This document shows, one piece after another, positions 5,843 to 8,324 of a stretch of DNA of 64,000 bases. Numbering within the stretch: position 1 is the first letter of the stretch; the number at the start of each line of letters is the position of its first letter. The notes under the pieces were generated by a model. It saw only the letters and a list, made by a program, of their open reading frames with translations, was not told where the DNA came from and did no database searches. A program made the position numbers and the translations under genes. This DNA is from Treponema brennaborense (GTDB taxonomy: Bacteria > Spirochaetota > Spirochaetia > Treponematales > Treponemataceae), in contig JAMPCJ010000004.1 of the NCBI GenBank assembly GCA_023666275.1, positions 1 to 64,000 on the forward strand, in the 5' to 3' direction.

Positions 5843-5917
5843 ATCCCTGCGGCATTTTATCCGCACGGCGCTGTCTGCGTGCGCGGGTCGTTTTGCTTCC
5901 GGAAAACAATTTTTCAT

Positions 5918-5946
5918 TTGTTTTTTTGGTTTTTTCCTTTTATAAT
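5918..5946 (+). promoter_or_regulatory. Promoter of the pectate lyase gene
   Basis: TTGTTT (5918-5923), 17-nt spacer made almost entirely of T and G, and a perfect TATAAT (5941-5946), 42 nt before the lipoprotein start. AGGGAG precedes the ATG by 5 nt. Confidence 0.65.
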
Positions 5947-5988
5947 AAAGTCTGTAATCCGAAAAATGCGCCGAGAAAGGGAGAAATC

Positions 5989-7910
5989 ATGAAAAAAACT
6001 GCATTGTTTTTGTTTTTGCCGCTGGTTTTGCTGGGGGGGGATGTTCCGGTCCCGCTGAAGACGATACGCCGCCGCAGCCGAACCTCACCCAAAATGCCGA
6101 CGGAACTTCGACGCTCATCATCAACGAAAACGACACGGCAAGCGGCTTCCTGAGCGCGGCGGCTGCCGACGGCTCGGCGGCAAAAATAAAAACGGTAAAT
6201 GTAACCGATTATCAAGGAAGCGGCTATCTCGACAATCCGCACACGATTATTTATTCCGTAAAATCCGCAACGGCGCAGAACGTGAAAATCGCAGTCCGCT
6301 ATGCGCACTGGGGCTGGACATATCAGATCAAGGCGGCGTATATTTCCGTCGGCGCAAAGACATACACGGAAGAAGACAAGATTTTGTACTGCAACCACAC
6401 GGGAAAAAGTTTTGCTCTTTCAAATGAAGTTGAAATTCCGCTCGAAGCAGGGAACAATCAGATTCGCCTGACGCCTGTGCCGCAAGGAACGCTTTTGCTG
6501 CCGTATGATGCCGAAAAAGGATACGGCGTGAACTATCCGAACGGTGCGCAAGATGAAGCAGATGCGAATTCAAGCGGAACTGTTGCGGGCGCGTATAAGG
6601 CAGACGGCTTAATCGCAAATCTCGATTACATAAAAATCACGGGAATCGGAATCGATGCGGGCGGCGAAATCACCGAAGAATATTATTCGCTGGCTGTCAA
6701 AGCTGCGGACGGACTTGAATCTTTCGGAACCGTGAGCGTCGAGCCGAATCGGAATCTTTTCGCAAAAGGTACGAGCATAACTGTAAAGGCGGAAGCCGCA
6801 AGCGGAATGAAATTCGATGTCTGGACGGGAACCTGTCCGTCGGCAGATGCGGTTTACACATTTACGATTGCCGAAGATACGGAGCTTGCCGCTCATTTCA
6901 TTCCCGAAAATTACGATGCCGCCTCCGAAAACGCGGGACTTGCGGGCTATGCGGCTGTCTGCGGCGACGACGGCACACCGTACACGATTACGGGCGGCGC
7001 CGGCGGAGAAACGATTACGATAAACAATCGCAGCGACTTGGACGCCGCAAAAGAAAAGATTGCCGGCGACACGCCGTACATCGTGGTAATCACTGCGCGG
7101 ATTTCTTCCGATGCATCGGCAGTCGAAAAATTCGATGTCGGCTCGAATAAAACAATCATCGGCAAAAGTACGGGAACGGAAACCGACAAAATAAACGGTC
7201 CCGGCTTGAAGAATATTTATTTCAACATCAATGATTGCGAAAATGTCATTGTAAAAAATCTCGTTTTCGGCGAGGCTTTGCAAAAAGATGCCTGCGCAAT
7301 CCACGGCGCGCAATTCGTTTGGATTGACCGCTGCTTGTTTTATTCGCCCGATCAGGACGACAAAGACAAGTACGACGGACTTTTGGACATAAAAGACGGT
7401 TCGCGGTATGTTACGATTTCAAACTGCGAGTTCAAAGATCATTGGAAAGCCGTTCTCTGCGGTTCGAGCGATACGGAAGAACACGGCGATTCGCAAATGC
7501 GTCTTACATTCTACGGAAATTATTTCCACAATGTCGGAAGCCGAATGCCGCTTTTCCGCTACGGGAAACTTCACATGTACAACAATTATTTTGACGGCGC
7601 CGACAGAAGCGAGGTTTCCTGCGTAAATATGCGCTGCGGATCGGAAGGCTTAATCGAATACAATGTTTTTGCAGACGTAAAAAGGGCGGTCGGATTTTAT
7701 TTCGACGAAAACAGTGCGCGCAGCGGCACATGGAACGTCAAGGGGAATGTTTACACAAACGTAGCGCATGATGCTCCGGCATCCTCCACGACAAATTGGA
7801 AGCCGTGCTACACGCCGCAGAATTTAATGACAGACCTCGGAACAAACGGCGAAACGCTGAAAGCCGCTGTCATTGCAAATGCGGGACCGAACTTTTCGGC
7901 GGCGGATTGA
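5989..7910 (+). CDS. Lipoprotein pectate lyase (PL1) with carbohydrate-binding and InlB-like repeat domains, out of frame at a G8 tract
   Basis: Starting at the ATG at 5989 (AGGGAG 5 nt upstream) the first 15 codons encode a lipoprotein signal peptide, MKKTALFLFLPLVLL. At the G8 run (6033-6040) the reading frame is lost. One more G, or two fewer, would join it to a frame that is open from there to 7910 and starts with a lipobox Cys (GGCSGPAEDD). Read this way the product is about 640 aa: a CBM35-like module (VRYAHWGWTYQIKA to LDYIKITGIGI), a short InlB-type repeat (GTVSVEPNRNLFAKGTSITV), then a family 1 polysaccharide lyase beta-helix with VTISNCEFKDHWKAVLCGSSD and the catalytic-Arg region SRMPLFRYGKLHMYNNYF. 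It would cleave pectin outside the cell. Without frame repair only an internal ATG (6282) could start the enzyme, without secretion signal. Phase variation or a sequencing error are both possible. Confidence 0.8.
6033..6040 (+). repeat. Homopolymeric G8 tract in the signal-peptide coding region
   Basis: Eight consecutive G lie exactly between the hydrophobic core of the signal peptide and the lipobox Cys codon. Six or nine G give an open frame; eight gives a frameshift that ends at 6153. Confidence 0.9.
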
Positions 7911-8094: not shown

Positions 8095-8324
8095 TTCATA
8101 CGTATGCGGTCTTTATTTCATACGTATGAAACTGCAAAATATCGGCATAAAAACGCGTTTTTTTCCCGTTTTATACGTATGAAAATTTCCGTTCATACTT
8201 ATGAAATAAATGTTTCATAAGTATGAAGTGCATGCGTTCATGCCTATGAAATGATCCGTTTATCCTTATGAAATAAAAGCGCCATACGGATGAAATGCGG
8301 CGCTCATACGGGTAAAATCCCTGT
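8095..8324 (+). repeat. Array of nine 22-bp repeats with a palindromic core TTCATACGTATGAA
   Basis: The 10-bp cores (consensus CATACGTATG) start at 8097, 8119, 8172, 8194, 8216, 8239, 8261, 8283 and 8305. The spacing is 22 bp except for one 23-bp step and one 53-bp step between copies 2 and 3. The second copy is a perfect palindrome; later ones decay (CATACTTATG, CATAAGTATG, CATGCCTATG, TATCCTTATG, CATACGGATG, CATACGGGTA). About 7-8 variable bases separate the 14-bp palindromes. A tenth weak copy may lie at 8346 (TTCATCTGCTATG). The region 7911-8389 holds no gene besides this and the promoter upstream. Confidence 0.85.

Follow-up and report, generated by a model that had tools for sequence, protein, structure and literature searches.

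The window, a 64,000-nt stretch of a Treponema brennaborense contig, carries on its forward strand a gene (positions 5989–7910) whose parts lie in two reading frames. Upstream of it the sequence reads as a weak –35 element (TTGTTT, 5918–5923), a candidate –10 box (TATAAT, 5941–5946) that a consensus scan did not pick up, and a ribosome-binding site (AAGGGAG, 5977–5983). The ATG at 5989 begins a stretch encoding the hydrophobic core of a signal peptide (MKKTALFLFLPLVLL, 5989–6032), which runs directly into eight consecutive Gs (6033–6040). Just beyond this G8 tract is the lipobox Cys codon (6042–6044), which is the first of 622 codons in the reading frame of a pectate lyase (6042–7910, with the stop ending at 7910); the 621 codons that follow it are all open. 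Both parts expected of a spirochaetal lipoprotein, the signal peptide and the lipobox Cys, are present, but at eight Gs they are in different frames. In most orthologues the two are intact.

With eight Gs, the frame that starts at ATG 5989 ends at a stop at 6153 (ORF 5893–6153). From its last stop before the tract up to the tract itself, the lyase frame holds no ATG, GTG, or TTG, and because it has no usable start there the gene is OFF as assembled. Over the first sixty codons past the tract, codon usage scores +0.27 in the lyase frame versus –0.36 and –0.32 in the other two. This signal begins directly after the tract, which places the frame junction at the tract itself. Frames and codon usage thus bear out the first-pass annotation of this DNA, which had placed the only interruption of the gene at the eight Gs between the signal-peptide core and the lipobox Cys, and its arithmetic, by which eight Gs put the gene out of frame, is correct.

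The lyase itself looks functional from its sequence and predicted structure. It contains a PL1 pectate lyase domain (PF00544, 7107–7670; E = 3.3e-36) that scores 125.3 bits against a curated cut-off of 24, and the nearest solved sequences are PL1 enzymes. Its RxPxxR motif (7542–7559) has Arg and Pro positions (R500, P502, R505) that are invariant in eighteen Treponema sequences; by comparison with PelC, this motif holds the catalytic and substrate-binding arginines of PL1 enzymes. An AlphaFold model (mean pLDDT 78) matched PL1 structures, which are parallel beta-helices, and CBM35 modules in Foldseek. The CBM35 matches (2w46, 2w3j, 2w87, 2w47) presumably arise from an N-terminal beta-sandwich in the model (approximately 6081–6659), and one of these structures contains anhydrogalacturonate, a pectate lyase product. 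Between this beta-sandwich and the PL1 domain lies a Flg_new_2 domain, a divergent InlB B-repeat (PF18998, 6726–6902). The Treponema enzyme shares the PF00544 fold and RxPxxR motif with the PL1 pectate lyases 7xks, 7bbv, and 3vmv, but differs from them in adding the CBM35-like module and InlB-type repeat and in being a predicted lipoprotein.

A single G8 in the 64-kb window is not significant (0.37 expected), and we rejected any claim of significance from the window alone, as about a quarter of shuffles (26/100) also contain one. We therefore give counts for the whole genome (2.35 Mb, eighteen contigs). Exact G runs number 19 of length 6, 4 of length 7, 26 of length 8, 34 of length 9, 8 of length 10, and 2 of length 11. 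A random tail would fall with length, whereas this distribution is bimodal, with a gap at seven and a peak at nine. Seventy runs have at least eight Gs, where extrapolation of a geometric tail predicts about one. The ratio of these runs to runs of seven (17.5) is the second highest among fifty-nine genomes, comprising the source genome and its relatives, for which the median is 0.5. Published counts of G/C tracts exist for several treponemes (PMC8049484), and most prokaryotic genes otherwise have fewer poly-G tracts than expected (PMC2831843).

The placement of these runs, like the distribution of their lengths, is highly non-random. About twenty-eight of the seventy tracts fall either in the region encoding the N terminus of a secreted protein or in a promoter spacer. 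By our own assignment, thirteen lie between the start codon and the lipobox Cys and five shortly past the Cys, giving eighteen in or just behind the signal peptides of secreted proteins. Their targets are BspA-type LRR lipoproteins, pectate lyases, a GH5 cellulase, and unassigned lipoproteins. The reading phase could be determined for sixteen N-terminal tracts: ten are in frame and six out, with three in each of the two wrong phases. A protein search of the genome detected five PF00544 genes, four of which have a G8 or G9 N-terminal tract (chance ∼2e-11 under random placement). Three of these four are in frame and the window gene is out; the fifth lacks a tract and adjoins a pectinesterase gene. 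Further tracts occur within genes for an MCP, an IspD-family enzyme, an acyltransferase, and Cas6. In the IspD-family cytidylyltransferase gene (L087:2043), a G8 near the start interrupts the gene, which is out of frame as assembled.

Ten tracts fit the spacer between a –35 and a –10 element, compared to a mean of 1.8 and a maximum of six when the flanks are shuffled. Several share the layout TTGACA-nnn-C8/9-GTnn-TATnnn, and the genes that follow this layout encode three paralogous beta-barrel proteins, a CotH-domain lipoprotein, and other secreted proteins. Most of the spacer tracts precede secreted proteins. The same arrangement is found at the T. pallidum TP0126 promoter (PMC7864442). Individual poly-C/G promoters with a spacing of 15–16 are at L056:2045, L057:4867 and 6877, L059:2163, L068:2091, and L083:2004, before three outer-membrane beta-barrel paralogues and several lipoproteins.

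Tract length also differs among related genes. LRR lipoprotein paralogues with near-identical flanks carry eight, nine, or ten Gs, and their upstream sequences are 76–100 per cent identical save for the more divergent L081 copy. Two contig ends fall at or near the poly-G of LRR lipoprotein genes (L065 on contig C8, which is 3,735 bases long, and L063 at the end of contig C4), suggesting an array of near-identical LRR lipoprotein genes that the assembler left unjoined.

A single-protein query of genome contigs returned no orthologues of the lyase, while an alignment query retrieved about twenty from Treponema. An orthologous lyase from another genus (L113, the same as L160; MAG JAAVAM010000066) has ten Gs at the corresponding position of its signal peptide, again out of frame. 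No such tract occurs in the other orthologues (about twenty, with those of T. berlinense and rumen MAGs among them), whose signal peptides are mostly intact; the switch is therefore not conserved with the enzyme. The same arrangement recurs in other gut Treponema lipoproteins, for example in frame in L153 and L156 and out of frame in L148, L154, and L155. A pattern scan for ATGAAR followed by G8 within 24–54 nt matched 125 of 274 genomes of the family, a figure that is a lead only because the scan also catches non-coding matches. Two further observations concern the orthologues. In that of Treponema zioleckii kT3 (L118/L164), an A7 run right after the start codon puts the ATG out of the lyase frame, a possible poly-A switch or a sequence error. 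In genome G150 of the same family but another genus, a G9 occupies a TTGACT-17-TAAAAT spacer near an orthologous lyase (L126:342, minus strand), forming a poly-G promoter.

We consider it very probable that the window lyase is a contingency locus, subject to translational phase variation through slipped-strand changes at the poly-G tract. A run of eight is long enough to slip, and replication slippage within the signal-peptide coding sequence would alter the length of the tract and hence the frame. At an in-frame length, translation would continue across the tract to the lipobox Cys, and the predicted CBM35-PL1 enzyme would be exported and anchored as a surface lipoprotein. At an out-of-frame length, only a short peptide and no enzyme would be made, and the assembled G8 would represent this OFF state. 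If slippage in living cells does turn expression ON and OFF, the benefit might be a population that is mixed for pectin use or for surface exposure. A switch of this kind had been proposed for the gene from its own sequence. The bimodal run lengths, the recurrence of tracts in signal peptides with mixed frames, the paralogues with eight, nine, or ten Gs, and the G10 of the orthologue are independent lines that all agree with that reading, in which switching itself is inferred. We also considered loss of mismatch repair as a cause and found it unsupported: mutS and mutL are both present and intact, so there is no general mutator background.

Three other explanations have to be weighed against a switch. 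The G8 might be a miscounted homopolymer, in which case the window tract is really in frame and the gene simply ON. Long G runs are difficult to sequence, assemblers can miscount them, and some contigs (C4 and C8) terminate exactly at such tracts. On the other hand, fourteen of the twenty-seven A/T runs of at least eight in the window sit within ORFs that run uninterrupted for 200 codons or more, making a general homopolymer fault of the assembly unlikely, and ten of the sixteen N-terminal G tracts are in frame. A consensus error also leaves unexplained why the tracts exist at all, why signal peptides and promoter spacers hold so many of them, and why their lengths peak at nine. We regard this explanation as unlikely, though it is the least improbable of the three. 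Even if it is true at the window locus, a switch would remain probable there; the tract could vary in length and yet have received a wrong G8 consensus in the assembly.

The remaining two take the G8 at face value. A fixed tract could work by programmed –1 frameshifting or transcriptional slippage, yielding the lipoprotein constantly at a low level, with no switching. The run contains G GGG GGG, which may serve as a slippery heptamer, and with eight Gs a –1 shift would lead into the lyase frame. Programmed sites, however, have one constant offset, while the out-of-frame paralogues here use both wrong phases and several others are in frame; we down-weight a programmed frameshift for this reason. 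The differing tract lengths among near-identical paralogues also argue against it, and we find it improbable. Decay of the gene is more doubtful still. An early pseudogene that lost its function through one frameshift would be out of frame, as the window lyase is in the assembly, but the 622 codons contain no second lesion, the catalytic motif is kept, and the coding signal is intact right past the tract. Moreover, the lesion falls exactly at a hypermutable tract, and the three other lyases of the genome that carry tracts are in frame. On the A/T-run and codon-usage evidence, both a simple pseudogene and a general sequencing fault at homopolymers are rejected or down-weighted.

Switching of surface proteins by poly-G tracts in other treponemes, on which the first-pass annotation had drawn, is established in T. 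pallidum, where poly-G runs of seven to eleven, mostly nine, vary in vivo (PMC7864442). The T. pallidum loci (tprE/G/J, tprL, TP0126) come from the same bacterial family and resemble the tracts here in run length (∼7 to 11), in their association with surface or outer-membrane genes, and in having tracts in promoter spacers (PMC7864442), as found here before beta-barrel genes. They differ in that the switches studied are promoter tracts on outer-membrane proteins, whereas the window tract is in signal-peptide coding sequence and the gene concerned encodes a polysaccharide lyase.

Neisseria opa genes carry a repeat in the coding sequence, within the leader peptide. Homopolymers within the ORFs of Neisseria NalP and MspA likewise switch expression, the frame setting ON or OFF (PMC3723659). 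The switched Neisseria proteins, however, serve mucosal pathogens as adhesins and proteases and are not plant-polysaccharide enzymes. In Gardnerella many tracts of at least eight are near surface-protein genes, and length variation has been shown for at least one; unlike the tracts here, most are upstream of ORFs, and the passages of that report consulted here name no lyase or cellulase as a target (PMC11287997). In the open-access literature searched, we found no report of a phase-variable pectate lyase, other polysaccharide lyase, or cellulase, in keeping with the earlier remark that a switch on a polysaccharide-degrading lipoprotein would be new. The mechanism is thus of a known kind, and what is new is the class of target and the concentration of tracts on signal peptides.

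Phase variation is usually read as a means of immune or phage evasion. If plant-polysaccharide enzymes are subject to it as well, slippage would add dietary diversity among the cells of a clone, or would hide exposed enzymes from phages or immunity. The abundance of tracts suggests that the population hedges on its diet as well as on its surface coat. A broader version of this idea, to which we give roughly even chances, is that most of the pectate lyases and the GH5 cellulase are switched individually by poly-G in or next to their signal peptides. A clonal population would then be a mosaic of polysaccharide-degrading types, alongside the tract-less lyase that adjoins the pectinesterase, and gut treponemes would use the same device. 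If plant-polysaccharide enzymes do switch, many ‘frameshifted’ secreted genes of treponemes would be switches and not pseudogenes. The lengths of about seventy tracts in the genome can be taken straight from sequence data, whether already available or newly generated.

Two minor observations lie outside the lyases. A Cas6-family gene (L070:1110-2040, minus strand) has a G9 at about codon 7 and is in frame as assembled; judging by its sequence, it is possibly a phase-variable CRISPR endoribonuclease. Downstream of the lyase, the window contains an intergenic array (8095–8272) of palindromic sites, TTCATAnnTATGAA, at positions 8095, 8117, 8170, 8192, 8214, 8237, and 8259, mostly 22–23 nt apart. 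Similar arrays occur at two other places in the genome (C1:75145-75226 and C12:184338-184418), and from their sequence all three appear iteron- or operator-like. The array on C1 lies ∼230 nt upstream of a poly-G tract in the promoter of a beta-barrel gene.
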